From the NCBI RefSeq assembly GCF_029626155.1, contig NZ_JARUBL010000001.1:3886501-3950500 (forward strand): DNA of 64,000 bases, written 5' to 3'. The stretch is from Solwaraspora sp. WMMD1047. GTDB taxonomy: Bacteria > Actinomycetota > Actinomycetes > Mycobacteriales > Micromonosporaceae. A program made the position numbers and the translations under genes. The notes beneath the pieces are model-generated. The model had not been told where the DNA came from, made no database searches, and saw nothing but the letters and a program-made list of their open reading frames with translations. Shown here one piece after another: positions 1,495 through 51,928 of this stretch (position 1 is its first letter; each line of letters starts with the position of its first letter).

Positions 1495-2409
1495 GTGACG
1501 CAGAGCCGACCCCTGCTCCTGGTGGACGCACCCAGCCTCTACTTCCGCGCCTACTTCGGCATTCCGGAGTCGGCGGCGAGGGCGGCCGACGGCAGCCCGG
1601 TCAACGCGGTCCGGGGCTTCCTCGACATGATCTCGACGCTGATCCGCAACCGGCGGCCCGACCGGCTGGTCTGCGCGCTGGACTTCGACTGGCGGCCGGC
1701 GTGGCGGGTGGCGCTGCTGCCGTCGTACAAGTTGCACCGGGTGGCCCCCGAGGGCGGCGAGGTGGTGCCGGACACGCTCAGCCCCCAGGTGCCGCTGATC
1801 CTGGATCTACTCGCGGCGGTCGGCATCCCGGCCGTCGGGCACGACGGCTACGAGGCCGACGACGTGCTCGGCACGCTGGCCACCCGGGAGCCGGCGCCGG
1901 TGGAGGTGGTCTCCGGCGACCGGGACCTGTTCCAGCTCGTCGACGACGCGCGCGGGGTCCGGCTGCTCTACGTCGGGCGGGGGGTGGCGAAGCTGGAGGA
2001 CTGCGACGACGCCGCGGTGCGGGCCAGGTACGGCGTCCCGGCCGCCGGTTATGCCGACTTCGCCGCGCTGCGCGGCGACCCCAGCGACGGGCTGCCAGGG
2101 GTGGCCGGCGTCGGCGACAAGACCGCCGCCCGCCTGGTCGACCGGTACGGCAGCCTGGACGCGATCCTGGCCGCGCTCGACGATCCGGCCGCCGGCTTCG
2201 CGCCGGGCCTGCGCGGCAAGCTGGCCGCCGCCCGCGACTACCTCGCCGTCGCCCCGACCGTGGTACGCGTGGCGCGCGACGTGCCGCTGCCACCGCTGCG
2301 GACCGAGCTGCCGACCGCGCCGGTCGACCCGGACGGGCTGCTCGCCCTCGCCGAGAAGTGGAACCTGGCCGGCCCGTGCCGCCGCCTGGTGGACGCCCTG
2401 GCCGGCTGA
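1495..2409 (+). CDS. 5'-3' exonuclease (PIN/FEN-like, Pol I N-domain type)
   Basis: The 304-residue product matches a stand-alone 5'-3' exonuclease of the DNA polymerase I N-terminal class. It begins LLLVDAPSLYFRAYFG with a metal-binding Asp. It continues with LVCALDFDWRPAWR, then the acidic cluster GYEADDVLGTLA and VVSGDRDLFQLV, and the helix-hairpin-helix GVAGVGDKTAARLVDRYG near residue 200. It would remove RNA primers or flaps during DNA repair. No polymerase domain follows, so the protein acts as a separate nuclease. It starts about 40 bases after the AraC gene on the same strand but has its own promoter-like hexamer, so co-transcription is not certain. The MHYT gene lies convergent downstream. 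Confidence 0.9.
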   Translation: MTQSRPLLLVDAPSLYFRAYFGIPESAARAADGSPVNAVRGFLDMISTLIRNRRPDRLVCALDFDWRPAWRVALLPSYKLHRVAPEGGEVVPDTLSPQVPLILDLLAAVGIPAVGHDGYEADDVLGTLATREPAPVEVVSGDRDLFQLVDDARGVRLLYVGRGVAKLEDCDDAAVRARYGVPAAGYADFAALRGDPSDGLPGVAGVGDKTAARLVDRYGSLDAILAALDDPAAGFAPGLRGKLAAARDYLAVAPTVVRVARDVPLPPLRTELPTAPVDPDGLLALAEKWNLAGPCRRLVDALAG

Positions 2410-2495
2410 GACCGGCGCGGGACCGCCCTGTCCGGCCGGTCGGGCATGGTCGGGGCCACCCGAGCGTTCAGGTCCGGTCGGTTCGTCCGGGGCTG

Positions 2496-3272
2496 TCAGG
2501 ACCGCTCGGCCATCCGGGCGTTCAGGTAGGCGGCGGCGGCCCGGTCCTCGTCGGTGGGCGCGGCGAGCACCGCGTAGATCAGGCCGATCACCACGAAGAT
2601 GACGGTCAGCAGGATCGGCACCAGCAGGGTCGACTCGGTCGCGCCGGACACGGTGCCGGCCGTGCTGTGCAGATGCACCGACATCGCGGACATGCCGGTG
2701 TAGTGCATGCCGCTGACCGCCAGCCCCATCACCAGCGAGGCGCCGGCGATGGCCCAGCCGCCGCGGACGGTCATCGCCAGCCAGAGCGCGGCGGTGGCGG
2801 CGACCACCGCGATGCCGATCGAGAGCCCGACCGGCCCGGGGGCGTAGTCGATCCGGCCGTTGATCTGCATCGCGGCCATCCCGGTGTAGTGCATGGCCGC
2901 GACGCCGAGACCGGTGAAGATGCCGCCGATGATGATCCGCACGCTGGAGAACCCGCCGAGCCCGACGATGAACAGCCCGATGCCGACCGTGACGATCGCG
3001 ATGACCGCGCTCGCGGCCGTGATCGGCACGTCGTAGCGGATCTGGGTGCCGCTGACGCCGAAGCCGAGCATCGCCATGAAGTGCATGGTCCAGATAGCCG
3101 TGCCGCCGAGCGCCCACGCGGCGAGGCTCAACCACCAGGAGCGCTGGGCCGTCGAGGGCGCCTGCCGGGCCCGCACGGCGCAGAGCAGCCCGAGGAACGA
3201 GCCAAGCACCGACAGGGCGTAGCTGAGCCCGGGTGTGATCCACCCGTACTCGAAATGATTGATCTCTCCCAC
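2496..3272 (-). CDS. MHYT-domain integral membrane sensor protein
   Basis: This 258-residue protein has about seven membrane-spanning segments and three MHYT-type motifs: WTMHFMAM, AMHYTGMAAM and GMHYTGMSAM. The conserved Met and His of this domain have been proposed to bind copper and sense O2, CO or NO. It has no GGDEF, EAL or kinase output domain, only a short cytoplasmic tail of about 25 residues (DEDRAAAAYLNARMAERS), so its partner is unknown. The GTG start at 3272 follows a GGGGGA-type ribosome site. It is convergent with the exonuclease gene. Confidence 0.88.
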   Translation of the reverse strand: MGEINHFEYGWITPGLSYALSVLGSFLGLLCAVRARQAPSTAQRSWWLSLAAWALGGTAIWTMHFMAMLGFGVSGTQIRYDVPITAASAVIAIVTVGIGLFIVGLGGFSSVRIIIGGIFTGLGVAAMHYTGMAAMQINGRIDYAPGPVGLSIGIAVVAATAALWLAMTVRGGWAIAGASLVMGLAVSGMHYTGMSAMSVHLHSTAGTVSGATESTLLVPILLTVIFVVIGLIYAVLAAPTDEDRAAAAYLNARMAERS

Positions 3273-3418
3273 GACGTCCCCCAGCCCGCGCCACTACCGT
3301 CCGGCATACCGGCACCCAGCAGCGATGATTAGCGGTCGGCGACCGAATCGCAACCGGGGGTTCGGCTTAAATTCGGCTGGTGAAGGTGCCCTGACCAGGC
3401 GTAGTTGAAAGGTCAATG

Positions 3419-3441
3419 AAAATTATCGGAAAGTCGCTCCG
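3419..3441 (-). terminator. Possible weak terminator after helY
   Basis: On the minus strand, CGGA and TCCG arms with a 7-base loop lie just after the helY stop. They are followed by GATAATTTTCATT, one of the few T-rich stretches in the window. The stem is only four pairs, so the call is tentative. Confidence 0.3.
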
Positions 3442-3452
3442 AGTAGTTGGCC

Positions 3453-6233
3453 TTACGCGGTCGCGTGGTACGCCAGCACCCCACGGTTGATCGCGGCCAT
3501 CGCCTGCCGGGCGGTGGCCCGCAGTTCGGCCGACGCGCCGGAGGCGTCGGTGAGCTGGCCGAGCAGGTCGACCACCTGCCGGGCCCACCGGACGAAGTCA
3601 CCGGCCGGCATGTCGCCATCGAGGTTGTGGCCGCTGGCGAGCACCTTCGCCAACGCCTCCCCCCGCGCCCAGCGGTGGATCGGCCAGACGAAACCCAGGT
3701 CGGGCTCCCGGGTCGGCTCCAGACCCCGAGCCGCCTCGTCCGCCTCCAGCTCGGCCCAGAGGGCCAGGGTCGCGTCGACCGCCTCGGCCACCCCGCCCCG
3801 GGGCACCGACGCCCGCTCGTCACTGTCCCGGCGCGCCTCGTACACCAGCACCGAGACCGCCGCGGCCAACTCCGCCGGGGAGAGCCCGTCCCAGATCCGG
3901 CGCCGGACACACTCGGCGACCAGCAGGTCGGCCTCGGTCCAGATCCGGGCCAGCATCCGGCCGGCGTCGGTCACCGAACCGTCCTCGGTGAGGTAGTCCC
4001 GGGCGGTCAACATCCCGCAGACCCGGTCGAACGTCAGCGCCAACGAACCGGTCCGGCCCGCCACCCGCTGCCGCAACTCGTCGGTGTCGCGCTCCAGCCG
4101 CCGCCGCCGTTCCGCCCACCGGGCGTGCTCCTCGCGCTCGTCGCAGGCGTGGCAGGGATGCCGGCGCAGCTCGGCGCGGAGCTCGGTGAGCTGGTGGTCC
4201 TCGCCGCCGGTCCGGGACCGCCCGCCGCGCCGGCCGGGCCGGCGGTCCAGCCCGGTACCGCTGACCGCCGCCGCCAGGTCCCGGCGGGCGGCCGGCGACC
4301 GGTGGTTGAAGTGCTTCGGCACCCGGATCCGGGCCAGCACCTCCGCCGGGCTGGTGAAGTCACCCGGCGTGACCCGCCCGGCCCACCGGTCCTGGGTCAG
4401 CACCAGCGGCCGCGGCTCGCCGAACCCGGCGGCCCCCGGTTCGAGCACCACCGCCAGCCCGGCCCGCCGCCCGGACGGAACCCGGATCACGTCACCGACC
4501 CGCAGCCGCTCCAGCGACGTCAGCGCCGCCGCCCGGCGTTGGCTCTGCCCGTGTCGGGCCAGCGCCTGCTCCCGCTCCGCGATCGCCACCCGGATGGCGA
4601 AGTACTCGTCGAAGTCGCCGTGGTGGCAGTGCGCCTCGGTACCGTACGTCTCGATGGTCTCCACGTTGCGCTGCACCTGCCGGGCCAGCCCGACCACCGA
4701 CCGGTCCGCCTGGAACTGCGCGAACGAGGACTCCAGCAGCGCCCGCGCGGGCGCGGCGCCCACCGACCCGACCAGGTTCACCGCCATGTTGTACGACGGC
4801 CGGAAGCTCGACCGCAGCGGATAGGTCCGGGTGGACGCCAGCCCGGCCACGTGCCGGGGATCCACCTCCGGCGACCAGACCACCACCGCGTGCCCCTCGA
4901 CGTCGATGCCGCGCCGACCGGCCCGCCCGGTGAGCTGGGTGTACTCCCCCGGCGTCAGGTCGACGTGCGCCTCACCGTTGAACTTGACCAGCCGTTCCAG
5001 CACCACGCAGCGGGCCGGCATGTTGATCCCCAGCGCCAGCGTCTCGGTGGCGAAGACCGCCTTGACCAACCCGCGCAGGAACAGCTCCTCGACCACCTCC
5101 TTGAACGCCGGCAGCATCCCGGCGTGGTGGGCGGCAAGCCCGCGCTCCAGGCCGTCGAGCCACTCCCAGTAGCCGAGCACCGCCAGATCCTCGCCGGGGA
5201 TCGCCGTCACCCGGCTCTCCACCACCCGGCGGATCTCGGCCCGCTCCTCCGGCGTGGTAAGCCGCAGGCCACCGGCGAGGCACTGCTGCACGGCCGCGTC
5301 ACAGCCGGCCCGGCTGAAGATGAACAGGATCGCCGGCAGCAGGCCGGCCCGGTCCAGCCGGTCGACCACCTCGGCCCGCAGCGGCCCGCGCCAACGCGGC
5401 CCCCGTCCGCCCGAACGGCCCCACCCGGACCCGTGGGTCCGGCCGTCGCCCAGCTCCAGCCGACGCAGCTGCTCCCTGGTGTAGCGCAGCAGCTCCGGGT
5501 GCACGTCGTGCTTGCGGGCCGCGTCGGCGTCGTGGAACAGGTCGAACATCCGCCGGCCGACAAGCATGTGCTGCCACAGCGGCACCGGCCGGTGCTCGCT
5601 GACCACCACCTCGGTCTCGCCCCGCACGGTGACCAGCCAGTCGGCGAACTCCTCCGCGTTGGAGACGGTCGCCGACAGCGACACCAGCCGCACCGACTCC
5701 GGCAGGTGAATGATCACCTCTTCCCAGACCCCGCCCCGGAACCGGTCGGCCAGGTAGTGCACCTCGTCCATCACCACGTAGGCCAGCCCGTGCAGGGTCG
5801 GCGAGCCCGCGTAGAGCATGTTGCGCAGCACCTCGGTGGTCATCACCACCACCGGGGCGTCGCCGTTTATCGCGTTGTCGCCGGTCAACAGGCCGACCCG
5901 CTCGACGCCGTAGCGGTCCACCAGGTCGTGGTACTTCTGGTTGGAGAGCGCCTTGATCGGGGTGGTGTAGAAGCACTTGCGCACCGGGCTGCCCGCCTCG
6001 CCGGTCGGGCGCAGCGCCAGGTGCACGGCGAACTCGCCGACCACCGTCTTGCCGGCACCGGTCGGGGCGCAGACCAGCACGCCGCTGCCCCGCTCCAGGG
6101 CCTGGCAGGCCTCCCGCTGGAAGTCGTCCAGGTCGAAGCCGAGCTCGACCGCGAACTCGTTGAGGGCGGGGAAGGAACTGGCGTGCACGGCCCGGCGGCG
6201 CGCCGCGGCGTACCGCTCGGCGGGGCTCGACAT
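3453..6233 (-). CDS. helY: DEVH-box Ski2/Mtr4-like superfamily 2 helicase HelY
   Basis: This 926-residue ATP-dependent helicase has Walker A CAPTGAGKT at residues 55-63 and motif II DEVH at 156-159. Motif III SLSAT lies near 185, and TGRAGRRGID marks motif VI. A Ski2-like C-terminal region follows with DSHC-like helices (VFVWPIHRWARG). Such proteins unwind RNA or structured nucleic acid; the mycobacterial homologue is HelY. Length fits the family. The gene lies at the end of the pafBC-tat locus, its usual place in actinobacteria. ATG 6233 is preceded by TAATCT with a 7-base gap, implying leaderless transcription. It is divergent from a HAD hydrolase. A long open frame on the opposite strand is an artefact of codon bias. 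Confidence 0.95.
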   Translation of the reverse strand: MSSPAERYAAARRRAVHASSFPALNEFAVELGFDLDDFQREACQALERGSGVLVCAPTGAGKTVVGEFAVHLALRPTGEAGSPVRKCFYTTPIKALSNQKYHDLVDRYGVERVGLLTGDNAINGDAPVVVMTTEVLRNMLYAGSPTLHGLAYVVMDEVHYLADRFRGGVWEEVIIHLPESVRLVSLSATVSNAEEFADWLVTVRGETEVVVSEHRPVPLWQHMLVGRRMFDLFHDADAARKHDVHPELLRYTREQLRRLELGDGRTHGSGWGRSGGRGPRWRGPLRAEVVDRLDRAGLLPAILFIFSRAGCDAAVQQCLAGGLRLTTPEERAEIRRVVESRVTAIPGEDLAVLGYWEWLDGLERGLAAHHAGMLPAFKEVVEELFLRGLVKAVFATETLALGINMPARCVVLERLVKFNGEAHVDLTPGEYTQLTGRAGRRGIDVEGHAVVVWSPEVDPRHVAGLASTRTYPLRSSFRPSYNMAVNLVGSVGAAPARALLESSFAQFQADRSVVGLARQVQRNVETIETYGTEAHCHHGDFDEYFAIRVAIAEREQALARHGQSQRRAAALTSLERLRVGDVIRVPSGRRAGLAVVLEPGAAGFGEPRPLVLTQDRWAGRVTPGDFTSPAEVLARIRVPKHFNHRSPAARRDLAAAVSGTGLDRRPGRRGGRSRTGGEDHQLTELRAELRRHPCHACDEREEHARWAERRRRLERDTDELRQRVAGRTGSLALTFDRVCGMLTARDYLTEDGSVTDAGRMLARIWTEADLLVAECVRRRIWDGLSPAELAAAVSVLVYEARRDSDERASVPRGGVAEAVDATLALWAELEADEAARGLEPTREPDLGFVWPIHRWARGEALAKVLASGHNLDGDMPAGDFVRWARQVVDLLGQLTDASGASAELRATARQAMAAINRGVLAYHATA

Positions 6234-41952: not shown

Positions 41953-42684
41953 TCACAGGTCGCAGGCGGCCAGGGAGCGCTCGTAGCCGTTGAAGAAGGC
42001 GTTGGTGCGTTGCTCGGCGGTGCCGTGCGCGCCCTCGGCGAACCAGGGCTGGCCGGGGTCGTCGGCCACCGCGAACAGCCCGTCGCGGAACTCGTCGAGG
42101 TCGCCGTCGGCGACGGTCAACGACCGGTCGCGCACCGAGTCGCCCAGGTAGGCGCCGGCCAGGCAGTCGGCCTGCAGTTCCTGCTGGATGGTGAAGTCGT
42201 ACCGGATGCCGAGGCGGACCTGGACGCCGTGGGCGTACTCGTGGCCGAGCAGGTAGAACACGAACGCGTCACCGATCTGCCGGAACGCGGCGAAGGCCCA
42301 GTTGAGGTCGTAGGCGATGAAGTCGCCGGCCGAACAGTAGACCGCGTTGTTGCGGGGCACCTCCAGACCAGCGCAGTCGATCTCGCCGTCGCGCTCGTAG
42401 GTGATCACTCGGCGGATCGGCTGGAACCGCTGCCCGGACGCCTCGAACGTCGCGGCCCAGTACCGTTCGGCGAGGGCGACGGCGTCACCGATGTCCGCCT
42501 CGAACTCCTCCGCGGTGTCGGTGCCGTCCACGTCGGTGCCGTCGGTGCCGCGGGCGGCGGGCGGATCGGCGCCCGGCTCCTCGCCGGCCGGGGCGAGACC
42601 GCAGGCCAGCGTCACGGCCACCGCGACGGCCAGGCCGAGCGCCACCGGCCGGTCAGCGGCCCGGCCGCTCCACCATCGCGCCAT
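41953..42684 (-). CDS. Neutral zinc metallopeptidase (YpfJ-like), exported
   Basis: This 243-residue protein has an N-terminal hydrophobic signal (VALGLAVAVAVTLACGLAP). A Cys at its end is not a textbook lipobox but may still be lipidated. The Zn_peptidase domain has NAVYCSAGDFIAYD, the zinc motif FYLLGHEYAHGVQVRLG and QQELQADCLAGAYLGD, with the third ligand Glu. The C-terminus HGTAEQRTNAFFNGYE is typical. ATG 42684 is preceded by GGGAGG six bases away. Role and substrate are unknown. Confidence 0.9.
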   Translation of the reverse strand: MARWWSGRAADRPVALGLAVAVAVTLACGLAPAGEEPGADPPAARGTDGTDVDGTDTAEEFEADIGDAVALAERYWAATFEASGQRFQPIRRVITYERDGEIDCAGLEVPRNNAVYCSAGDFIAYDLNWAFAAFRQIGDAFVFYLLGHEYAHGVQVRLGIRYDFTIQQELQADCLAGAYLGDSVRDRSLTVADGDLDEFRDGLFAVADDPGQPWFAEGAHGTAEQRTNAFFNGYERSLAACDL

Positions 42685-42748
42685 GAACGCCTCCCTCGGG
42701 CCGTACCGCTCCATCATCGCCCATCCGCCGACCCTCGGTCCGGGGCGG

Positions 42749-43027
42749 TCAGAGCTGGCCCGGTGGCCCGCCGGTCCGCCAGTACCAGCCGTCGCGGCGG
42801 GTCAGCAGCCCCTCGTCGATGAGGTAGCGGCGCAGCGACACCCAGTCGTAGGCGTAGAAGTCGCGCAACACCGCGTCCACCTCGGGTTCGCGCATCCGCA
42901 CCCCCGGCTCGAAGGCCGCCACCACATGGTCGAGCACCACCCGGCGCTTGCCGGCCCGGGCCGGCAGGGCCACCAGCCGGCCGTCGCGCAGGAACGCGCC
43001 GAGGACCTTCTCCCGATCAACCGCCAC
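42749..43027 (-). CDS. DUF2087 domain protein
   Basis: This 92-residue protein consists of one DUF2087 domain: VLGAFLRDGRLVALPARAGKRRVVLDHVVAAFEPG, then VDAVLRDFYAYDWVSLRRYLIDEGLLTRRDGWYWR. It has a winged-helix look and occurs alone or fused to ArsR-type regulators, so nucleic-acid binding is possible. GTG 43027 lies six bases after TAGCGT. It is divergent from the lanthipeptide operon over 204 bases and is a candidate regulator of it, which is speculation from position alone. Confidence 0.85.
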   Translation of the reverse strand: MAVDREKVLGAFLRDGRLVALPARAGKRRVVLDHVVAAFEPGVRMREPEVDAVLRDFYAYDWVSLRRYLIDEGLLTRRDGWYWRTGGPPGQL

Positions 43028-43033
43028 AGCGGC

Positions 43034-43039
43034 ACGCTA
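43034..43039 (-). promoter_or_regulatory. Leaderless -10 element of the DUF2087 gene
   Basis: TAGCGT on the minus strand, six bases before GTG 43027. Confidence 0.6.
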
Positions 43040-43099
43040 TCGGCCCGGGCAAGCCGGTTTCCGTCCCCCGCGGGCCGGTCCGCCAAACCTGACTTCTGT

Positions 43100-43113
43100 C
43101 ACGGATGTCCGTG
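43100..43113. promoter_or_regulatory. Inverted repeat CACGGA-TG-TCCGTG upstream of ramC
   Basis: Perfect 6-base arms with a 2-base centre lie 119 bases before the ramC start. It is followed by GTGC-N5-GCAC at 43111-43124. This is a candidate binding site for a RamR-type or other dimeric regulator. Confidence 0.45.
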
Positions 43114-43200
43114 CGGCCTGCACGCAGCGTCATGACTTTACGCACTAGCTGCGCCCCTGTCCCAGCCACGAGACTCGAACACGTCGATGAGTCAGGGCAT

Positions 43201-43210
43201 CCCCTAGGGG
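43201..43210. promoter_or_regulatory. Palindrome CCCCTAGGGG just upstream of the ramC ribosome site
   Basis: A perfect 10-base palindrome ends seven bases before the GGAGGAGG ribosome site of ramC. It could be an operator or a small 5' hairpin. Confidence 0.4.
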
Positions 43211-43231
43211 TCGATCCGGAGGAGGCGAGCG

Positions 43232-45991
43232 ATGGACGAGCGGTACGACACCTACTGCGCGGTGGACCCGCTGTTCTACGACTCCGTTGCCAGCGCCAGC
43301 ACCCGGACCACCGAGTTCAGCGCCGCCGACCGCCCGGTCCCGCCGGGTTGGCGGCGCGAGCCCAGCGACGACTGGTTCATCTACGGCCCCGAGGGCGGCG
43401 ACCTGCCGCAGCAGGGCTGGAAGGTGCACCTGTCGGCCTGCCTGGACAACGCCGACCGGATCCTCGACGCCGCCTGGGACTACTGCGTGCCGCGGGGGCT
43501 GCCGTTCAAGTTCCTCCGCGGGCCGCGGATGCTGCTGCTGCGCAACGCCAAGTACGCCCGGCGCGGCTCCAGCGGGAAGTTCGTCACCATCTACCCCCGT
43601 GACGAGGCGGAGCTGGAACTGGTCTGCAAGGAGCTCGACGAGCTGCTCGCCGGTGAGCCGGGACCCTACATCCTCAGCGACCTGCGTTACGGCTCCGGGC
43701 CGGTGTACCTGCGCTACGGCGGCTTCGCAGCCCGCTACTGCCTGTCACCGGAGGGCCAGGTCGTGCCGGCCATCGAGGACGGGTCCGGCACCCTGGTCCC
43801 GGACCGCCGGGACCCGGTCTTCCACCTGCCCGACTGGGTGCGGTTGCCGGACTTCCTCACCCCGCACCTGGCCGCCCGCAACGCCACCACCACCACCGGC
43901 CTGCCGTACCAGATCGAGCGGGTGATCCACTTCTCCAACGGCGGTGGGCTCTACGTCGGCCGCGACACCCGCACCGACGCCCGGGTCGTCCTCAAGGAGG
44001 CCCGCCCACACGCCGGCCTCGACGCCACCGGCACCGACGCCGTCACCCGGCTGGACCGCGAGGCCCGGATGCTGCGCCGGCTCGCCGGAGTGGCCCGGAT
44101 CCCCCGGGTGCACGACGAGTTCGGCCTGGCCGACCACCGCTTCCTGGCGCTGGAGTTCGTCGACGGCCGCCCGCTCAACAAACTGCTGGTCGAGCGCTAC
44201 CCGCTCACCGACGCCGACGCCACCCCGGCCGACTTCGCCGACTACACGGCCTGGGCGCTGCGGGTGCACGAGCAGGTCGAGCGGGCCATCGACGCGATCC
44301 ACGGGCGCGGCGTCGTCTACGGCGACCTGCACCTGTTCAACATCATGATCGGCCCCGACGACGAGGTCACCCTGGTCGACTTCGAGGTGGCCGCGCCGGT
44401 CGACGAACCGGGCCGCCCGGGCCTGCGCAACCAGGGCTTCGCGGCGCCCCGCGACCGGACCGGCTTCGCCGTCGACCGGTACGCCCTGGCCTGCCTGAAG
44501 CTGGCGCTGTTCCTGCCGCTGACCCCGCTGGTCCGGCTGGCCCCGGAGAAGGCCGCCCACCTGGCCGACGTGATCGCGAGCCACTTCCCGGTGCCGCGCT
44601 CGGCCTTCGACCAGGCGATCGCCGAGATCGTCGGCACCCCCGCCGAGGCCGCCGCGCCCGCCGGAGCGCCGGCCACGGTGCCCGCCCCCACCGGACGCAC
44701 CGCCGACATGACCGGTCCGCCGGCCGGCACGGCCCGCCCGGCCGGGCGGCTCGGCGCCGGGTTCCCCGCGCCGGACCTCGACGCCGACCCGGGCCGGTGG
44801 CCGGACCTGCGGGGCCGGCTGGCCGCGGCGATCCTCGCCAGCGCCACCCCGGACCGCGACGACCGGCTCTTCCCCGGCGACATCGACCAGTTCCGCACCG
44901 GCGGACTCAACCTCGCCTACGGCGCCGCCGGGGTGCTCGACACCCTCGCCGGCACCGGCGCCGGCCGGTTTCCCGAACACGAACAGTGGCTGGTCAAGCG
45001 GGCCCTGGACGCACCGTCGGGCAGCCGCTGCGGACTCTACGACGGTCTGCACGGAGTCGCGTACGCGCTGGAGCGGCTCGGCCGGCGGCAGGACGCCCTC
45101 GACGTCCTCGACGTCTGCCTGAACGAGCCGTGGGAGCAGCTCGGACCGGACCTCGCCAGCGGCCTGAGCGGAGTGGCGCTCAACCTGGCCGAGTTCGCCG
45201 CCCGTACCGGCGAGCCCGCCCTGCGGGACGCGGCGCAGCGCGCCGTCGAGCTGGTGACCGAGCGGCTCGCCGCCGATCCCGACACCGACGAGCCGGACAA
45301 CCCCGACGAGCCGGGCGGTACGCAGATCAGCGGCGGCCGCCACCCGTACGCCGGTCTGACCCGGGGCCGCACCGGCCCGGCGCTGATGTACCTGCGCTTC
45401 CACGAGGTCACCGGCGACCCGGCGCTGCTCGACCGGGCCGGCGCCGCGCTCCGGCACGACCTGCGCCGCTGCCTGCTGCGACCGGACGGCGCACTGGAGG
45501 TCAACGAGGGCTGGCGGAGCATGCCCTACCTGGCGCACGGCAGCGTCGGCATCGGCCTGGTGCTCGACCAGTACCTGCGACACCGCCCGGACGACGACCG
45601 GCTGGCGCGGGCCGCCGCCGCGATCCGCCGTGCCGCCCGGTCCCCGTTCTACGCGCAGTCCGGGCTCTTCGCCGGGCGGGCCGGCATCATCGCCTACCTG
45701 GCCGCCCGGGTCGCCGCCGAGGCCGGACCGGCGGGCAGTGGGCCGGACCGGACCGAGGACCGGATCGAGCTGGCCGCCCAGGTGCGGCGGCTGGGCTGGC
45801 ACGCCATGCCGTACCGCGGTTCCGTCGCCTTCCCCGGTGACCAGCTGCTGCGGCTGTCGATGGACCTGGCCACCGGCACCGCCGGGACCCTGCTCGCGCT
45901 CGGCACCGCGCTCTCCCCCGAGCCGGTGACCCTGCCCTTCCTGGCGCCGCTCACCGGCGCCACACAGCTCCCCTCGCGACCGCGAGGGTGA
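43232..45991 (+). CDS. ramC: Class III lanthipeptide synthetase RamC/AmfT (LanKC)
   Basis: RamC installs the lanthionine bridges of SapB-like peptides. The 919-residue protein has a lyase region at the N-terminus (about residues 1-220). A Ser/Thr-kinase-like domain follows (about 230-480) with VVLKEARPHAG for the ATP-site Lys, GRGVVYGDLHLFNIMI as catalytic loop and LVDFEVA as the metal site. A Pro/Ala linker leads to a LanC-like cyclase domain (about 530-910). The three zinc ligands of true LanC enzymes (Cys, Cys-His) are not seen, as is normal for class III. Length matches Streptomyces RamC, about 930. It has a strong GGAGGAGG ribosome site and heads the cluster. Confidence 0.95.
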   Translation: MDERYDTYCAVDPLFYDSVASASTRTTEFSAADRPVPPGWRREPSDDWFIYGPEGGDLPQQGWKVHLSACLDNADRILDAAWDYCVPRGLPFKFLRGPRMLLLRNAKYARRGSSGKFVTIYPRDEAELELVCKELDELLAGEPGPYILSDLRYGSGPVYLRYGGFAARYCLSPEGQVVPAIEDGSGTLVPDRRDPVFHLPDWVRLPDFLTPHLAARNATTTTGLPYQIERVIHFSNGGGLYVGRDTRTDARVVLKEARPHAGLDATGTDAVTRLDREARMLRRLAGVARIPRVHDEFGLADHRFLALEFVDGRPLNKLLVERYPLTDADATPADFADYTAWALRVHEQVERAIDAIHGRGVVYGDLHLFNIMIGPDDEVTLVDFEVAAPVDEPGRPGLRNQGFAAPRDRTGFAVDRYALACLKLALFLPLTPLVRLAPEKAAHLADVIASHFPVPRSAFDQAIAEIVGTPAEAAAPAGAPATVPAPTGRTADMTGPPAGTARPAGRLGAGFPAPDLDADPGRWPDLRGRLAAAILASATPDRDDRLFPGDIDQFRTGGLNLAYGAAGVLDTLAGTGAGRFPEHEQWLVKRALDAPSGSRCGLYDGLHGVAYALERLGRRQDALDVLDVCLNEPWEQLGPDLASGLSGVALNLAEFAARTGEPALRDAAQRAVELVTERLAADPDTDEPDNPDEPGGTQISGGRHPYAGLTRGRTGPALMYLRFHEVTGDPALLDRAGAALRHDLRRCLLRPDGALEVNEGWRSMPYLAHGSVGIGLVLDQYLRHRPDDDRLARAAAAIRRAARSPFYAQSGLFAGRAGIIAYLAARVAAEAGPAGSGPDRTEDRIELAAQVRRLGWHAMPYRGSVAFPGDQLLRLSMDLATGTAGTLLALGTALSPEPVTLPFLAPLTGATQLPSRPRG
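45971..45988 (+). other. Hairpin in the last codons of ramC
   Basis: CCCTCGC and GCGAGGG with loop GACC end one base before the ramC TGA. It lies upstream of ramS1 and could mark an mRNA processing or stabilisation point that raises ramS over ramC. Confidence 0.4.
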
Positions 45992-46160
45992 TCCGAACCG
46001 GACACTCGAAGGAGGTGTACGACATGACGCTTCTCGACCTTCAGGGGATGGAGCTGACCGACCGGACCGACGGCGGCGGCGGAAGCCGGGCGAGCCTGCT
46101 GCTCTGCGGCGACAGCTCGCTGTCCGTGACCACCTGCAACTGATCCCAGGCCACCAACGC
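45991..46160 (+). repeat. Tandem ramS duplication, unit 1
   Basis: The unit covers the leader ATCC...CCGGACACTCGAA, the ribosome site, ramS1 and about 17 bases after its stop. It is followed directly by unit 2 at 46162-46334. Coding parts differ at only two bases; flanks have drifted more. Confidence 0.85.
46024..46143 (+). CDS. ramS: SapB-like class III lanthipeptide precursor RamS, copy 1
   Basis: This 39-residue precursor has leader MTLLDLQGMELTDRTDGGG. Its LLDLQ is the LanKC recognition box of class III leaders. The core is SRASLLLCGDSSLSVTTCN. Two SxxSxxxC motifs, Ser21/Ser24/Cys28 and Ser31/Ser34/Cys38, supply the dehydrated serines and the cysteines for two lanthionine rings. From memory the Streptomyces SapB core differs only by Ile for Val at one site. 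SapB is a surfactant peptide that lets aerial hyphae leave the moist surface. A consensus ribosome site AAGGAGGTG lies eight bases before the ATG. Confidence 0.96.
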   Translation: MTLLDLQGMELTDRTDGGGGSRASLLLCGDSSLSVTTCN

Positions 46161-46161
46161 A

Positions 46162-46334
46162 ATCCAGACCGGACACTCGAAAGGAAGGTGTACGACATGA
46201 CGCTTCTCGACCTTCAGGGGATGGAGCTGACCGACCGGACCGACGGCGGCGGCGGAAGCCGGGCGAGCCTGCTGCTCTGCGGCGACAGCTCGCTGTCCGT
46301 GACGACCTGCGACTGATCTCAGGTCACCAGCGGG
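46162..46334 (+). repeat. Tandem ramS duplication, unit 2
   Basis: Second unit of the duplication described at 45991-46160, with a slightly altered ribosome site (AAAGGAAGGTG) and a diverged region after the stop. Confidence 0.85.
46197..46316 (+). CDS. ramS: SapB-like class III lanthipeptide precursor RamS, copy 2
   Basis: This precursor is identical to copy 1 except for the last residue, Asp39 in place of Asn39, and one silent change (ACC to ACG) in the preceding Thr codon. All ring-forming residues, Ser21/Ser24/Cys28 and Ser31/Ser34/Cys38, are kept. The two products would differ by one carboxylate at the C-terminus, next to the last ring. Its ribosome site AAAGGAAGG is weaker than that of copy 1, so it may be made in smaller amounts. 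Confidence 0.96.
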   Translation: MTLLDLQGMELTDRTDGGGGSRASLLLCGDSSLSVTTCD

Positions 46335-46366
46335 GTCCTGGGTGGGCATACGTGCCCGCCCAGGAC
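46335..46366 (+). terminator. Attenuator/terminator hairpin between ramS2 and the exporters
   Basis: A 14-pair stem (one G-T pair) at 46335-46348 and 46353-46366 with loop TACG starts 18 bases after the ramS2 stop. It would stop much of the transcription and protect the short ramS message while letting some read through into the exporter genes. Confidence 0.7.
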
Positions 46367-46433
46367 AAGCCGCTGTCCGGGCTCGGGTGCCGCGTGCCCG
46401 GGCGTACCGAACGAGAACACCTCGGGAGACGTA

Positions 46434-48317
46434 GTGGACCTGGCCGGGCCTGCCGATCTCCGGCTGCTGCGACAGGCGGTCCGGCACGGTGGCGGCTGGA
46501 CCGTCCTCCTGTTGGCCGTCGCACCGCTGGGTGCGGCGGCCGAACTGTGTCTGCCGGCCGTCCTCGGGCTGGCCGTGGACGCCGCCCTGGGCGCCGGCCA
46601 TTCCTGGTGGCCGGCGCTGGCCTGCGCCCTGGTCGCGGTGATCGTGGCCGGTGACGCCCTCGGCGACCTGGCCAGCGGTTCCGGCACCGCGCGGTCCACC
46701 GCCAGGATCCGTCAGCACCTGCTGCGGCACCTACTGGCCCTGGACCCGCGCACCGCCGGCCGGTACCCGGTCGGGGACCTGGTCGGCCGGCTGATCGGGC
46801 AGGCCGCCGACACCGGCCATGCCGGCGCCACCGTGATCCTCGGGCTCACCGCGCTGCTCCCGTCGGCCGGCAGCGTGGTCGCCCTGGCCCTGCTCGACCC
46901 GTGGCTCGCCGTCACCTTCGTCGCCGGTCTGCTGCTGCTCGCGGTCCTGCTGCGCGCCTTCGTCGCCGACTCCTCGACCGCCGCCCGCGGCTACCTGCGG
47001 GCCCAGGCCGGCATCGCCGGACGACTGCTGGAGGCGCTCGCCGGCGCCCGGACGATCGCCGCGGCCGGCACCCTGCCGGCCGAGATCGACCGGGTGCTGC
47101 AGCCGCTGCCGGAACTGCGCGCGCACGGCGAGCGGACCTGGCACGCGTTGGCCCGGGCCGCCGGCCGGACGGCGGCGGTGGCGCCGCTGCTGCAGCTCGC
47201 GATCATCGCGGTCGGCGGCTGGTCGGTGTCGGCCGGCCGGCTGTCCGCCGGCCAACTGGTGGCCGCCATCGGGTACGCCGCCCTCGGCGCCGGTCTCGGC
47301 ACGGTGGTCAACACGTTGAGCCGGCTGGTGCGTACCCGGGCCGGGGCGCACCGGGTCGCGATGATCCTGTCCGAGCCGGCCCGTGACCACGGCAGCCGGG
47401 CCCTGCCGCCGGGTGCCGGACGGCTGCGGCTGCGGGACGTGACCGTGTCCGCCGTCGACGGCCGACCGATTCTCGACCGGATCGACCTGGACCTGCCCGC
47501 GGGCGGAACGATCGCGGTGATCGGCCCCTCCGGCGCCGGCAAGTCGACCCTGGCCGAGGTCGCCGGTCGGCTGCGCGACCCGGACTCCGGCGACGTCCTG
47601 CTCGACGGCCTGCCGTTGCGCGAGCTGACCCCGGCGGCGCTGCGCCGGGCGGTGGGTTACGGTTTCGAGCGGCCGGTCCTGGTCGGCGAGACCGTCGCCG
47701 ACGTGATCGGCCTCGGCCTGGACAGCACCGGTGACTCCGCGCCGCCGGAGCGGGTCCGGCGGTCGGCCCGCACGGCCTCGATCGACGACTTCGTCGAGCG
47801 GCTGCCGGCCGGCTACCGCACCCCCCTGGCCGAGGTGCCGATGTCGGGCGGGGAGGCGCAGCGGCTGGGGCTGGCCCGGGCCCTGCACGGCGAACGGTTG
47901 CTCGTGCTCGACGACGCGACATCCAGTCTGGACACCGCGACCGAACACCGGATCGCCCGGGCGCTGGTCACCCACCTGCACGGCCGCACCCGGCTGATCG
48001 TCACCCACCGGACGGCCACCGCCGCCGCCGCGGACGTGGTGGCCTGGCTCGACGCGGGCCGGTTGCGCGCGGTGGGCCGGCACCGGGACCTGTGGGCGGA
48101 CCCGGCCTACCGGGCCGTGTTCCAACCGCCCGACCAGCCGGTCGGCGGTGCCGACCAGCAACCTGTCGGGGTGGACCAGAGCCCCGTCGGTGCCGACCAG
48201 CCGGCGGGCGGGCCGAACCAGCGGCCCGTCAGTGTGGACCACAGCTACGTCGGTGCGAACCAGCCGGCGGGCGGAGGCAAGCAGCCGCGGGGCGGAGCGA
48301 ACGGGAGTAGCCGATGA
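46434..48317 (+). CDS. ramA: Lanthipeptide ABC exporter, RamA-like (membrane and ATPase domains)
   Basis: This 627-residue half-transporter has about five to six membrane helices (residues 20-310). An ATPase domain follows: Walker A IGPSGAGKST near 364, signature MSGGEAQRLGLARAL and Walker B LLVLDDATSSLD. In Walker B the usual catalytic Glu is Asp, so this half may be the weaker ATPase. The last 65 residues are eight copies of a seven-residue repeat (consensus DQxxVGx) with no known role. With RamB it would form the heterodimer that exports the peptide. The GTG start follows GGGAG. Confidence 0.9.
   Translation: MDLAGPADLRLLRQAVRHGGGWTVLLLAVAPLGAAAELCLPAVLGLAVDAALGAGHSWWPALACALVAVIVAGDALGDLASGSGTARSTARIRQHLLRHLLALDPRTAGRYPVGDLVGRLIGQAADTGHAGATVILGLTALLPSAGSVVALALLDPWLAVTFVAGLLLLAVLLRAFVADSSTAARGYLRAQAGIAGRLLEALAGARTIAAAGTLPAEIDRVLQPLPELRAHGERTWHALARAAGRTAAVAPLLQLAIIAVGGWSVSAGRLSAGQLVAAIGYAALGAGLGTVVNTLSRLVRTRAGAHRVAMILSEPARDHGSRALPPGAGRLRLRDVTVSAVDGRPILDRIDLDLPAGGTIAVIGPSGAGKSTLAEVAGRLRDPDSGDVLLDGLPLRELTPAALRRAVGYGFERPVLVGETVADVIGLGLDSTGDSAPPERVRRSARTASIDDFVERLPAGYRTPLAEVPMSGGEAQRLGLARALHGERLLVLDDATSSLDTATEHRIARALVTHLHGRTRLIVTHRTATAAAADVVAWLDAGRLRAVGRHRDLWADPAYRAVFQPPDQPVGGADQQPVGVDQSPVGADQPAGGPNQRPVSVDHSYVGANQPAGGGKQPRGGANGSSR
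48132..48299 (+). repeat. 21-bp tandem repeats encoding the RamA tail
   Basis: Eight consecutive in-frame 21-base units of consensus (G/A)ACCAG-N12-GGN-like sequence. They encode heptapeptides beginning Asp-Gln or Asn-Gln. Confidence 0.85.
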
Positions 48318-50374
48318 CCTGGGGCGGGCCGGGTCCTGCGGCGACCGGGGACGGCGTCCGGGCGGTGAGCTGGTCGGCGCTGCGCGGACGGCCCGGCACG
48401 CTGGCCCGGTTGGGCGGCTGGTCGGTGGCCGAGGCGCTGCCCACCCTGCTGGCCGGCTACCTGACCGCGCGGGCGGTGGACGACGGATTCCTCGCCGGGC
48501 GGCTCGGCCCCGGCCTGGCCTGGCTCGGCGGGCTGGCGGCCGCGGTGCTCGTCGGCGCGGTCGGCACCACCCGGGCGTACGCCTGCCTGGGTGACCTGGT
48601 GGAACCGTTCCGCGACGACCTGGCCCGGCGGGTGGTCGGTGGCGCGCTCCACCACGCCACCAGCCCTGGCGGCCGGCCGCAGACCGCCGCGGTGGCCCGG
48701 CTCACCCATCAGGTGGAGATCGTCCGCGACACCTTCGCGGGGCTGGTGATGGTCGTCCGTGGCTTCGTCTTCACCGCCGGCGCCGCCCTGCTCGGCCTGC
48801 TCTCCCTCGCCCCGGTGCTGGCGGCGCTGGTCGCCGGTCCGCTGCTGGTCGGACTCGCGCTGTTCGCGGCGGCCCTGCCGGCGATGGCGGCGCGACAGCG
48901 GGACTACGTGCTGGCCGACGAGCGGCTCGGCGAGGCGGCGGGCGCGGCACTGGCCGGCCACCGCGACATCGTGGCCTGTGGCGGGCAGTCGCGGGTCGAG
49001 GCGACCGTCGGCGCCCGGATCGAGGCGCAGGCAACCGCCGAGCGGTCGCTGGCCCGGATGGCGGCGGTGCGCGGCCTGACCCTCGCCGTCGGCGGCTGGC
49101 TGCCCCTGGTCGTGCTGCTGCTGGCCGCGCCATGGCTGGTGCGGCGGGGCCTGACCGCCGGCGCCATCCTGGGCGCCCTGGTCTACCTGTCAACCGGGCT
49201 GCAGCCGGCCCTGCACGCCCTGGTCAAGGGCGTCGCGGTCGGCGGCCTGCGGTACGCCGTGACGCTGCGCCGGATCCTGCGGGCCACCGCCCACCCATCG
49301 ACCGACGCAAGCCCGCCGGTCATCACCGCACCACCGTCCATGACCGGACCGTCGTCCATGACCGGACCGTCGTCCATGACCGGACCGTCGTCCATGACCG
49401 GATCGGACCGAGCCGTGGCGGAGTCGGCTGGCGGTCGACCGTCCGCCGTTTCGTCGACTGCGACTTGGACGCCTGACAGGTCGGCTGCGACTTGGACGCC
49501 TGACAGGTCGGCGCCCGCCGACGGGGAGAACGGCGGACCTGCCGTCGCGGTGCGAGGCCTCACCTTCCGGTACGGATCGGCGGCCCGACCCGTACTCGAC
49601 GGGTTCGACCTCACCCTGCCCGCGGGCGACCACCTGGCCATCGTCGGGCCCAGCGGCGCCGGCAAGTCCACCCTGGCCGCGCTGATCGCCGGCCTGCTGA
49701 TCCCGGACGCCGGCTCGGTACGGTTGGCCGGACGCCCGGTGCCGGCCAGCGCCACCGGGCCGGACGCAGCAGGGCTGGCCAGCCGGACGGCGTTGGCCGG
49801 CCGGCGGGTCCTCATCCCGCAGCAGGCATACGTGTTCAGCGGGCGGCTGGCGGAGAACCTGCGCTACCTGAACCCGGCCGCGGGCGCGGCCGAACTCACC
49901 GCCGCCATCGACGCGCTCGGCATGACGGCGCTGGCCCGACGACTCGGCGGCCTCGACGCGTTGGTCGACCCGGCGGCGTTGTCGGCCGGCGAACGCCAGC
50001 TCATCTCGGCGGTCCGGGCGTACCTCTCGCCGGCGCCGCTGGTGATCCTGGACGAGGCGACCTGTCACCTGGACCCGGCCGCGGAGGCGCAGGTGGAGCG
50101 GGCCTTCGCCCGCCGGCCGGGCACCCTGATCGTGGTCGCACACCGGATCAGCTCCGCCCTGCGGGCCCGCCGGGTCCTCGTCATCGACGGCGGGACCCCG
50201 CTGTTCGGCCGGCACGAGGAGCTGCTGGGCCGGTCACCGACCTACCGCGATCTGGTCGGCCACTGGCAGGACGGACCCGGTGTCAGCGATCAGATCCAAC
50301 CCGCCTCGCGGGCGATCCGTACCGACTCGATCCGGGTCCGGGCGCCGCACTTGCCGGCGATCCGCGACAGGTGA
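48314..50374 (+). CDS. ramB: Lanthipeptide ABC exporter, RamB-like (membrane and ATPase domains)
   Basis: This 686-residue partner of RamA is coupled by an ATGA overlap. The membrane domain is residues 20-320. A low-complexity linker of about 75 residues follows with SSMTGP units and two copies of ATWTPDRSA. The ATPase has Walker A VGPSGAGKST near 446, signature LSAGERQLISAVRAY and Walker B LVILDEATCHLD, with the catalytic Glu present. The linker makes it longer than usual ABC half-transporters of about 600. Its last 85 bases overlap the 3' end of a response-regulator gene on the other strand. Confidence 0.9.
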   Translation: MTWGGPGPAATGDGVRAVSWSALRGRPGTLARLGGWSVAEALPTLLAGYLTARAVDDGFLAGRLGPGLAWLGGLAAAVLVGAVGTTRAYACLGDLVEPFRDDLARRVVGGALHHATSPGGRPQTAAVARLTHQVEIVRDTFAGLVMVVRGFVFTAGAALLGLLSLAPVLAALVAGPLLVGLALFAAALPAMAARQRDYVLADERLGEAAGAALAGHRDIVACGGQSRVEATVGARIEAQATAERSLARMAAVRGLTLAVGGWLPLVVLLLAAPWLVRRGLTAGAILGALVYLSTGLQPALHALVKGVAVGGLRYAVTLRRILRATAHPSTDASPPVITAPPSMTGPSSMTGPSSMTGPSSMTGSDRAVAESAGGRPSAVSSTATWTPDRSAATWTPDRSAPADGENGGPAVAVRGLTFRYGSAARPVLDGFDLTLPAGDHLAIVGPSGAGKSTLAALIAGLLIPDAGSVRLAGRPVPASATGPDAAGLASRTALAGRRVLIPQQAYVFSGRLAENLRYLNPAAGAAELTAAIDALGMTALARRLGGLDALVDPAALSAGERQLISAVRAYLSPAPLVILDEATCHLDPAAEAQVERAFARRPGTLIVVAHRISSALRARRVLVIDGGTPLFGRHEELLGRSPTYRDLVGHWQDGPGVSDQIQPASRAIRTDSIRVRAPHLPAIRDR
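49336..49403 (+). repeat. 18-bp tandem repeats in the ramB linker
   Basis: Three full units (49336, 49354, 49372) and one partial (49390) of GTCCATGACCGGACCGTC encode SMTGPS. The array is in frame. Confidence 0.9.
49459..49512 (+). repeat. 27-bp exact tandem duplication in the ramB linker
   Basis: Units 49459-49485 and 49486-49512 are identical and encode the nonapeptide ATWTPDRSA twice. Confidence 0.9.
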
Positions 50375-50907
50375 TTACGCACCGTACCCGGAGACAGTGA
50401 CAGCTTCGCGGCGATCTCCTTGATCGGCCAACCGGTTGCCGCGATGCTCAGGATCTCCGCCTCGCGGCTGGTCAGCGGGCTGGCCGTGGCCAGCGCGGCG
50501 GCGACCAGTCCCCCATCGAGCACCGGCTCACCGCGGAACAGCCGGCGGATGCCCTCCACCACCCGCTCCGGGGCCACGTCGTTGCCGAGGAACCCGACGT
50601 TGCGCATCGCTTCGCCACCGCCGCGCAGCGCCGCGGCGACCGCACCCGCCCGACGCGGCTCGACCAGCAGCAGGATGGGGCAGGGCAGGTCCACTCCGGA
50701 ATTCTGGTCACAGCCGGGCGGCCCGTCCGGGCCGAACAGGTTCAGGTCGATCACCAGGACCTGTGGACAGTGCGCCCGTAGCGCCGGCTCGATCTCGCCG
50801 GCCCGGTCGACCTCCGCCACCACCTCGATGTCGGGTTGCATGCTCAGAACGAATGCCAACGCCCCACGGATGAGGGCTCCATCGAGTGCGAGCAGCGTGC
50901 GGATCAC
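50290..50907 (-). CDS. RamR/AmfR-type LuxR-family response regulator, copy 1
   Basis: This 205-residue regulator has a receiver-like domain (IRTLLALDGALIRGALAFVLSMQPDIEVVAEV). Only one Asp of the usual acidic pair remains, at position 8; the phospho-acceptor position is VLVIDLNLFG. The LuxR helix-turn-helix is LTSREAEILSIAATGWPIKEIAAKLSLSPGTVRNHLSRI, ending EAGWI. RamR in Streptomyces is an orphan regulator that activates ram genes. GTG 50907 has GGAGG five to six bases upstream. It is convergent with ramB and its 3' end lies within ramB. Confidence 0.85.
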   Translation of the reverse strand: MIRTLLALDGALIRGALAFVLSMQPDIEVVAEVDRAGEIEPALRAHCPQVLVIDLNLFGPDGPPGCDQNSGVDLPCPILLLVEPRRAGAVAAALRGGGEAMRNVGFLGNDVAPERVVEGIRRLFRGEPVLDGGLVAAALATASPLTSREAEILSIAATGWPIKEIAAKLSLSPGTVRNHLSRIAGKCGARTRIESVRIAREAGWI

Positions 50908-51094
50908 ATCCACCCTCCGGTTCGCAGCCACGAGATCACTAGCTGTAAACATTGAAACATGGCGCCCCTCCCGCCGCCCGACGAGAAATGCGGTCCCGGC
51001 ACGGTGGATCGCAGCGCCGCCCGGACGGCTGTCGGGCACCCCGGCCGGGCGGGCCGAACGCGCACCCACCCCGCCGGTGAATCGGACCGGACAG

Positions 51095-51700
51095 TCAGAT
51101 CCAGCCGTCCTGGCGGGCCTGCCGGATCGCCTCCATCCGGTTGCGGGTTCCGGTCTTCCGCATGATCGACGACAGGTGATTGCGGACGGTTCCATGGGCC
51201 AGGAACAGCCGGCTGGCGATCTCCTTCAGCGGCAGACCTTCCGCGGCGACCCGGAGCACCTCCCGTTCCCGCTCGGTGAGCGGCATCGGCGGTGGGTTCA
51301 GGGCGGCCATGGCGGCGCCCGGATCCACCACCAACTCCCCCTTCAGCACGGCACGGATCTGGTCGACCAGGTCGGCCGGCGGGAGGTCCTTGCCGACGAA
51401 GCCGCGTACGCCGGCACGCAGCGCCGCCTGCAGCGTGTCCGGGCCGGGCACCGCGCTCAACACCAGCACGGCGCACTCCGGGACCTCCCGGGTGAGCCGG
51501 TCGACCAGCGCCCACGCGGCCGGTCCACCGGCCCCGATGTCCATGACGAGTACGTCGGGCCGTACCGCCCGGGCGAGGCCGAGGGCGTCCTGGACGCGGG
51601 CGAGGTCGGCAATGACCTCCAGATCGTCCTCATTCGACAACACGGTGCGCAGTGCGCGCCGCAACAATCCCACCTCTTCGACGATGAGAATTCGGGCCAC
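51095..51700 (-). CDS. RamR/AmfR-type LuxR-family response regulator, copy 2
   Basis: This 201-residue paralogue of the neighbouring regulator has receiver VARILIVEEVGLLRRALRTVL, where the acidic pair is Glu-Glu. The phospho-acceptor is in VLVMDIGAGG and Lys in FVGKD. The helix-turn-helix is LTEREREVLRVAAEGLPLKEIASRLFLAHGTVRNHLSSIM, also ending GWI. The same C-terminal pattern in both suggests related DNA sites. No kinase gene is linked, so control may not use phosphorylation. It starts at GTG 51700 and lies 187 bases upstream of copy 1 on the same strand. Confidence 0.85.
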   Translation of the reverse strand: MARILIVEEVGLLRRALRTVLSNEDDLEVIADLARVQDALGLARAVRPDVLVMDIGAGGPAAWALVDRLTREVPECAVLVLSAVPGPDTLQAALRAGVRGFVGKDLPPADLVDQIRAVLKGELVVDPGAAMAALNPPPMPLTEREREVLRVAAEGLPLKEIASRLFLAHGTVRNHLSSIMRKTGTRNRMEAIRQARQDGWI

Positions 51701-51928
51701 GAGGCCTTCTCCGTTCTTGCAATGCGCAGACTCAGGCGACGTCGGGCCGACGTGTCGTTACCACGGGTCCCGACGGATTAGGACGAGGTATGTGGTGCCG
51801 CCTACCGACCGGCGCGTCGAGGCGCACGGCGTCCCACCGGGGCAGCGGACTGCCGGCCGGCCCGGCCAGCGGAACGGGGCGGGACGACCGGGTACGGCGC
51901 GGCCGGAACGGTGGCCACGCCGGGAAGG

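Follow-up and report, generated by a model that had tools for sequence, protein, structure and literature searches.

In Streptomyces, SapB is the textbook example of a peptide for aerial growth. In S. coelicolor, its genes follow the order ramC-ramS-ramA-ramB-ramR according to a section of PMC4255298, and the amf cluster of S. griseus (AmfS) is named as comparable in its five-gene organisation in a passage of PMC13380574. SapB clusters in Micromonosporaceae are also already known from the passages on Micromonospora sapB in PMC5765111 and PMC9011353; these clusters belong to the same family and cluster type as the one described here, and the passages are silent on paired regulators and tandem precursors. 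We analysed a 64,000-nt stretch of Solwaraspora sp. WMMD1047 (Micromonosporaceae; contig NZ_JARUBL010000001.1, positions 3,886,501 to 3,950,500; hereafter the window), which carries such a ram/amf cluster. Going by the cited section, it resembles ramCSAB-ramR of S. coelicolor in gene content and order and in the precursor and synthetase families, but differs in having two ramS genes and two regulators, R1 and R2, of separate lineages. The window is a typical member of a family-wide ram/amf variant, in which the conserved pair of two different regulators may be new; no description of the pair was found in the open-access literature searched, most subscription journals lying outside it. The features of the locus are as follows.

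43097-43146, plus strand: conserved block upstream of ramC, a candidate control element (TGTCA, 31 nt, TGAC, CACT)
43232-45991, plus strand: ramC, class III lanthionine synthetase (LanKC) of 919 aa, with NCBIfam and Pfam matches
46013-46159, plus strand: direct repeat, copy 1, 147 nt
46024-46143, plus strand: ramS1, 39-aa precursor with last residue N, matching the RamS and SapB/AmfS models
46186-46332, plus strand: direct repeat, copy 2, 147 nt, 97% identical
46197-46316, plus strand: ramS2, 39-aa precursor with last residue D, matching the RamS and SapB/AmfS models
46335-46366, plus strand: 14-bp hairpin in the 117-nt ramS2/ramA spacer
46434-48317, plus strand: ramA, ABC half-transporter with a GTG start
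48314-50374, plus strand: ramB, ABC half-transporter, whose 3' end overlaps R1 by 85 nt
50290-50907, minus strand: R1, NarL-type regulator with a degenerate receiver, its start re-set from the sequence
51095-51700, minus strand: R2, NarL-type regulator with the receiver residues retained

The family models recovered ramC, the two ramS genes, the two ABC half-transporters and the two RamR-like regulators where the sequence-only reading had placed them, and its assignment of a SapB-type lanthipeptide cluster, here of class III, to an actinomycete other than Streptomyces was borne out by the RamC and precursor models in a Micromonosporaceae genome. The placement in Micromonosporaceae (family f1 of the comparison) agrees with one f1 row being identical to a named Actinoplanes row and with the Micromonospora relatives of RamC. 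All reading frames of the cluster in the window are open. The products of ramS1 and ramS2 have 38 of 39 residues in common, the sole difference being N39D, and matched both PF19402 RamS (E-values of 1.1e-16 and 1.7e-16, respectively) and NF033212 SapB/AmfS (3.7e-18 and 1e-17). Both carry the LLDLQ leader and two Sx2Sx3C motifs, the motif rules for RamS-type precursors being those in passages of PMC13380574 and PMC7268733. Each ramS lies in one copy of the direct repeat, with 97% identity and 173 nt from start to start. These two genes were the only RamS-model matches in the genome, and raising the E-value limit to 10 in a protein search brought two further matches, with E of 1.08 and 3.04. The 17-residue precursor end is also encoded at the presumed streptomycete loci L184 and L191, with I for V. 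The core is like that of S. coelicolor SapB; the AmfS core differs, and the window precursors have the SapB-type end.

RamC scored 1108.9 bits against the class III LanKC model NF038151 (cut-off of 575), as opposed to 389.2 bits against the class IV model, which is below the cut-off of that model (650). Its Pfam domains were RamC_N, Pkinase and LANC_like (PF25816 among the matches), and its closest named relatives were from Micromonospora, with 67-68% identity. The conserved lyase residues of ThurKC, as given in a passage of PMC10604976, have counterparts in K64, H66, K93, K107, K116, D150, R161 and R192/193 of RamC, a correspondence drawn from motif order and near-equal numbering; the alignments were to other LanKC chains and a kinase domain, not to ThurKC. 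At the aligned places of the cyclase metal (zinc) site, RamC showed no Cys or Cys-His (PYLAHGS, GLFAGR). The Pfam scan identified two ABC half-transporter genes, ramA and ramB, adjoining ramS; in ramB the ATPase model matched and ABC_membrane did not. In-frame repeats were observed in both genes, with a 21-nt unit at the end of ramA (48130-48255) and an 18-nt unit ahead of the ATPase part of ramB (49331-49405). Judged by its sequence, the cluster very probably directs the synthesis of a surface peptide of the SapB kind.

R1 and R2 are both NarL-type response regulators convergent with ramB. Both matched GerE, whereas the receiver model PF00072 matched R2 only (2.4e-13), and none of 14 R1 members gave a Pfam receiver match. 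The R1 profile matched full-length DesR at 1e-40, and the predicted model of R1 resembled full-length response regulators, with a mean pLDDT of 86.5 and values below 50 at residues 64-72 (92.2 for the R2 model). The phosphorylation-site Lys and Thr/Ser were present in 0 of 67 R1 rows, as was the pair of acidic residues, and the Asp in 63. Judged from sequence and predicted model, R1 is a pseudo-receiver protein, with the receiver fold retained and the phosphorylation residues lost. Among 69 R2 rows, the Asp was found in 57, Thr/Ser in 50, Lys in 49 and both acidic residues in 26, with all of these together in only 8, the window R2 among them; most R2 rows are therefore themselves non-canonical. 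The commonest pocket of the regulators in the family labelled f21, presumed streptomycete from its precursor cores, was H-D-D-A-K (11 of 22). RamR of S. coelicolor is reported, in a passage of PMC12632262, to form dimers without being phosphorylated, and its Asp to serve in dimerisation.

The sequence-only reading had described the regulator as duplicated. A carefully built tree of 58 regulators, however, put R1 and R2 in separate clades (100/98 and 97/93, respectively), and R1 grouped with three single regulators of family f22 (96/92) and not with R2. The f21 regulators formed a clade of their own (100/100), with no supported join to either R1 or R2. A quick tree of 82 rows including the named loci gave an R1 set of 28 rows (97) and an R2 set of 29 rows (95), with several single regulators unplaced. 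Since both clades are family-wide, the pair is not a local copy, and a recent local duplication was rejected. By these trees, the lineages of R1 and R2 are distinct and old; the pair would go back either to an early duplication or to two lineages having come together.

To place the window in its family, we used RamS matches in 354 Micromonosporaceae species. RamS was present in 151 of these species; in 47 of the 151 it matched two or three times. Loci were then compared in a set of 75, namely the window and one locus from each of 74 genomes, hand-picked from the 151 among the better-scoring listed rows with multi-copy genomes favoured. Two or three precursors, counted by open frame, occurred in 32 of the 75 loci, a share inflated by that choice, so 47 of 151 is the fairer multi-precursor rate. 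RamR-like regulators, one or two, stood at the same place in 74 loci. Both R1 and R2 followed the operon in convergent orientation in 63; a further 7 had one R2-like and 4 one R1-like regulator, and L105 had none in the fetched stretch, beyond which regulators would escape these counts. A regulator is labelled R1 or R2 by whichever of the two window proteins it scores higher against, a labelling that means little for single-regulator loci, and the layout count missed R1 of L011 because of a long open frame. At least two precursors together with both regulators were found in 27 of the 75 loci. The doubled precursor with paired regulators is an ordinary layout in Micromonosporaceae; what the sequence-only reading had named as counting against it, the same layout in many genomes, holds as a genomic fact, although no paper describing the layout was found in the literature searched. 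Among named Micromonosporaceae loci, both regulators were present in 8 of 11, with L014 ending early and L017 and L018 having one each; these counts overlap the others (e.g., L116 and L015 are identical rows) and are thus not independent. No ramA/ramB matches lay between the synthetase and the regulator pair in L122 (G311), L123 (G312) and L011 (Micromonospora sp. ATCC 39149), of which the first two retain ramS and L011 is without a ramS match as well. In L149 (G216) and L141 (G267), the ramA/ramB matches were scattered among a number of short open frames, which may mean that the genes are broken or misread.

Outside the family, two regulators were not observed. A class-wide sample of 394 genomes had RamS in 48, of which 46 lay outside Micromonosporaceae, and loci were read from 40 of these 46 (22 of 25 in f21). 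None of the 40 had two regulators: one convergent regulator was found in 22 of 22 f21 loci, and the other 18 loci comprised 13 with one regulator and 5 with none detected. The named Streptomyces and Kitasatospora loci likewise had one convergent regulator in 6 of 6 (L019, L023, L026, L027, L029 and L040), L024 and L025 being excluded because their contigs end before reaching past ramB. The contrast with Streptomyces drawn by the sequence-only reading therefore stands for the number of regulators but not for their strand, and an inversion relative to Streptomyces was discarded, the orientation being the same convergent one. This likeness to the S. coelicolor SapB cluster is taken from the 22 presumed streptomycete loci, not from the S. 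coelicolor locus itself. Two or three precursors followed ramC in 8 of the 18 non-f21 loci, and a ninth locus (L208) had a second match before ramC; in the reading of the 40 loci, one precursor of L187 is counted twice. In a passage of PMC7268733, 57% of class III precursors are the sole precursor of their cluster, so several precursors per class III cluster are ordinary.

Two candidate control elements accompany this layout. The pattern TGTCA...TGAC...CACT occurred upstream of ramC in 63 of the 75 loci, compared with 0 of 1500 mononucleotide shuffles, and its gap was 31-33 nt in 57 of the 63; because these related sequences were themselves the source of the pattern, 63 of 75 is a description and not a test. 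It was present in 9 of 11 named Micromonosporaceae loci but in none of the 29 named loci from elsewhere, of which eight are streptomycete, which sets the window's conserved block apart from those ram clusters. A tighter form of the pattern had one match in the genome, at ramC, but a backwards control pattern also matched once; a single match is therefore within chance, and its position is the informative part. Downstream of the last ramS, a stem of at least 10 bp was found in 56 of the 75 loci, compared with 24 of 750 mononucleotide shuffles; its sequence differs between loci. The window stem was 14 bp and the z-score of the 117-nt spacer was -4.26, whereas the best stem in the ramS1/ramS2 interval was 3 bp, with no comparable hairpin there. 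The terminator scan accepted no T run after the hairpin, and no Rfam family matched in the window at the gathering score. Both ramS copies precede the hairpin, which suits a dosage role; the hairpin may influence precursor/exporter stoichiometry. Together, the upstream block and the post-ramS hairpin would fit a two-regulator, high-precursor operon. The upstream neighbours of ramC, both on the minus strand, are a putative neutral zinc metallopeptidase (41953-42717) and a DUF2087 protein (42749-43027).

The developmental setting was approached through chaplins. A profile search with candidates scored in full found no chaplin match in the source genome, and the same search was positive in 6 of 7 control genomes, the exception being that of a Kribbella. 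Among the 354 Micromonosporaceae genomes, chaplin matches were found in 140 and were weaker than in the controls, in a family-wide scan that scored only some first-look candidates per genome. Both RamS and chaplin were matched in 48 genomes, RamS only in 103, chaplin only in 92 and neither in 111; thus, 103 of the 151 RamS-bearing genomes were without a chaplin match. Within index block G144-G300, where every listed RamS genome belongs to g24, chaplin was found in 0 of 157 and RamS in 83 of 157. The two sources conflict on the phenotype of Micromonospora: in a passage of PMC5765111, no strain surveyed formed aerial hyphae and sapB was present in almost half of the genomes, whereas a passage of PMC9011353 counts Micromonospora among the aerial-hypha-forming genera. 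A separate observation in the source genome was made on its second contig (L177, 16,572 bases), where positions 2246-3479 resemble cas1e/cas2e of Streptomyces/Kitasatospora plasmids with 72-75% identity.

With a probability of roughly 0.7, we consider the locus a working Micromonosporaceae-type SapB/AmfS class III lanthipeptide operon, in which the precursor duplication serves mainly dosage and R1 and R2 act on the upstream block. RamC would dehydrate Ser of both precursors and close two rings, one at each Sx2Sx3C motif, a protease encoded outside the cluster would remove the leader, and RamA/RamB would export the product. The tandem ramS genes before the conserved hairpin would raise precursor output above exporter output. 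R1, judged from its receiver, would be phosphorylation-independent and would act with R2 on the block upstream of ramC, either separately or as a heterodimer. The product may coat the spore or hyphal surface; since no chaplin match was found in the genome, its role probably differs at least in part from the erection of aerial hyphae in Streptomyces. Several points weigh against this reading. No sigma-70-type promoter or intrinsic terminator consensus was found in 42950-51850. The identity between the DNA-binding parts of R1 and R2 was 0.563 within genomes and 0.567 between genomes, and 465 of 500 permutations reached the observed value, so a within-genome matching of the two was rejected and co-evolution is unsupported. 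The joint action of R1 and R2 is a proposal made from sequence, expression of the cluster and its product are likewise predictions, and the absence of chaplins relies on a profile that gives weak matches in Micromonosporaceae. Furthermore, precursors of multi-copy loci differed in their last 17 residues in 14 of 30, which makes family-wide variety possible.

This last point touches the other half of the earlier suggestion of expanded precursor dosage or variety, of which the two precursors are confirmed and the variety is weak, resting on one C-terminal residue. If the N and D ends gave peptides of unlike charge and surface behaviour, the pair would be a variety device. N39D is the only amino-acid difference between them, and 8 of the 14 differing loci differ at the final residue only (from a reading of the list). 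However, the last 17 residues were identical among copies in 16 of the 30 loci, the repeat is 97% identical as after recent copying, and five sampled precursors end in TTCD, including ones with single differences elsewhere, so the D ending is not peculiar to this genome; we regard the variety device as unlikely. (The strict leader pattern behind this comparison missed copies and covered 74 loci, hence 30 multi-copy loci instead of the 32 of 75 by open frame.) A decaying cluster, with the duplicate and the degenerate receiver reflecting relaxed selection, is far less probable still. Relatives lacking ramA/ramB matches (L122, L123 and L011) or carrying fragments (L149 and L141) would agree with decay, but the window frames are all open, the expected synthetase motifs are present, the core is conserved, with ASLLLCGDSSLSVTTCN the commonest end in the sampled loci (67 copies), and the residue losses of R1 are family-wide and not private to this genome.

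Two further alternatives concern the regulators. R1 may be a damper that, bound to the same DNA or to R2, keeps the operon off until removed, in keeping with the lack of Lys and Thr/Ser in all 67 R1 rows and with the GTVRNH stretch of the recognition helix common to R1 and R2. However, the one regulator present in the Kribbella loci scores best against R1, suggesting that an R1-type protein can act alone, and RamR itself is an atypical activator in passages of PMC12632262 and PMC12548384; a damper seems to us about as improbable as the variety device. In another reading, which we hold to be slightly less improbable but still doubtful, R1 and R2 would form an obligate, coincidence-detecting heterodimer that fires the SapB operon via 43097-43146, and in genomes lacking a chaplin match SapB would then have another task than the raising of aerial hyphae, for instance the coating of spores or of substrate hyphae. 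The precedent is BldM-WhiI of Streptomyces, two NarL-type regulators that, unlike R1 and R2, are encoded at separate loci and have many targets. Like R1 and R2, they are two orphan atypical response regulators in a developmental setting (PMC4125116), but their heterodimer is known and that of R1/R2 only proposed.

A SapB-type peptide is widespread in a family where many RamS genomes show no chaplin match and one survey reports no aerial hyphae (a passage of PMC5765111). The conserved regulator pair, one member of which is a predicted pseudo-receiver protein, would offer a compact system for studying both the role of SapB in Micromonosporaceae and how two atypical regulators may share one promoter.

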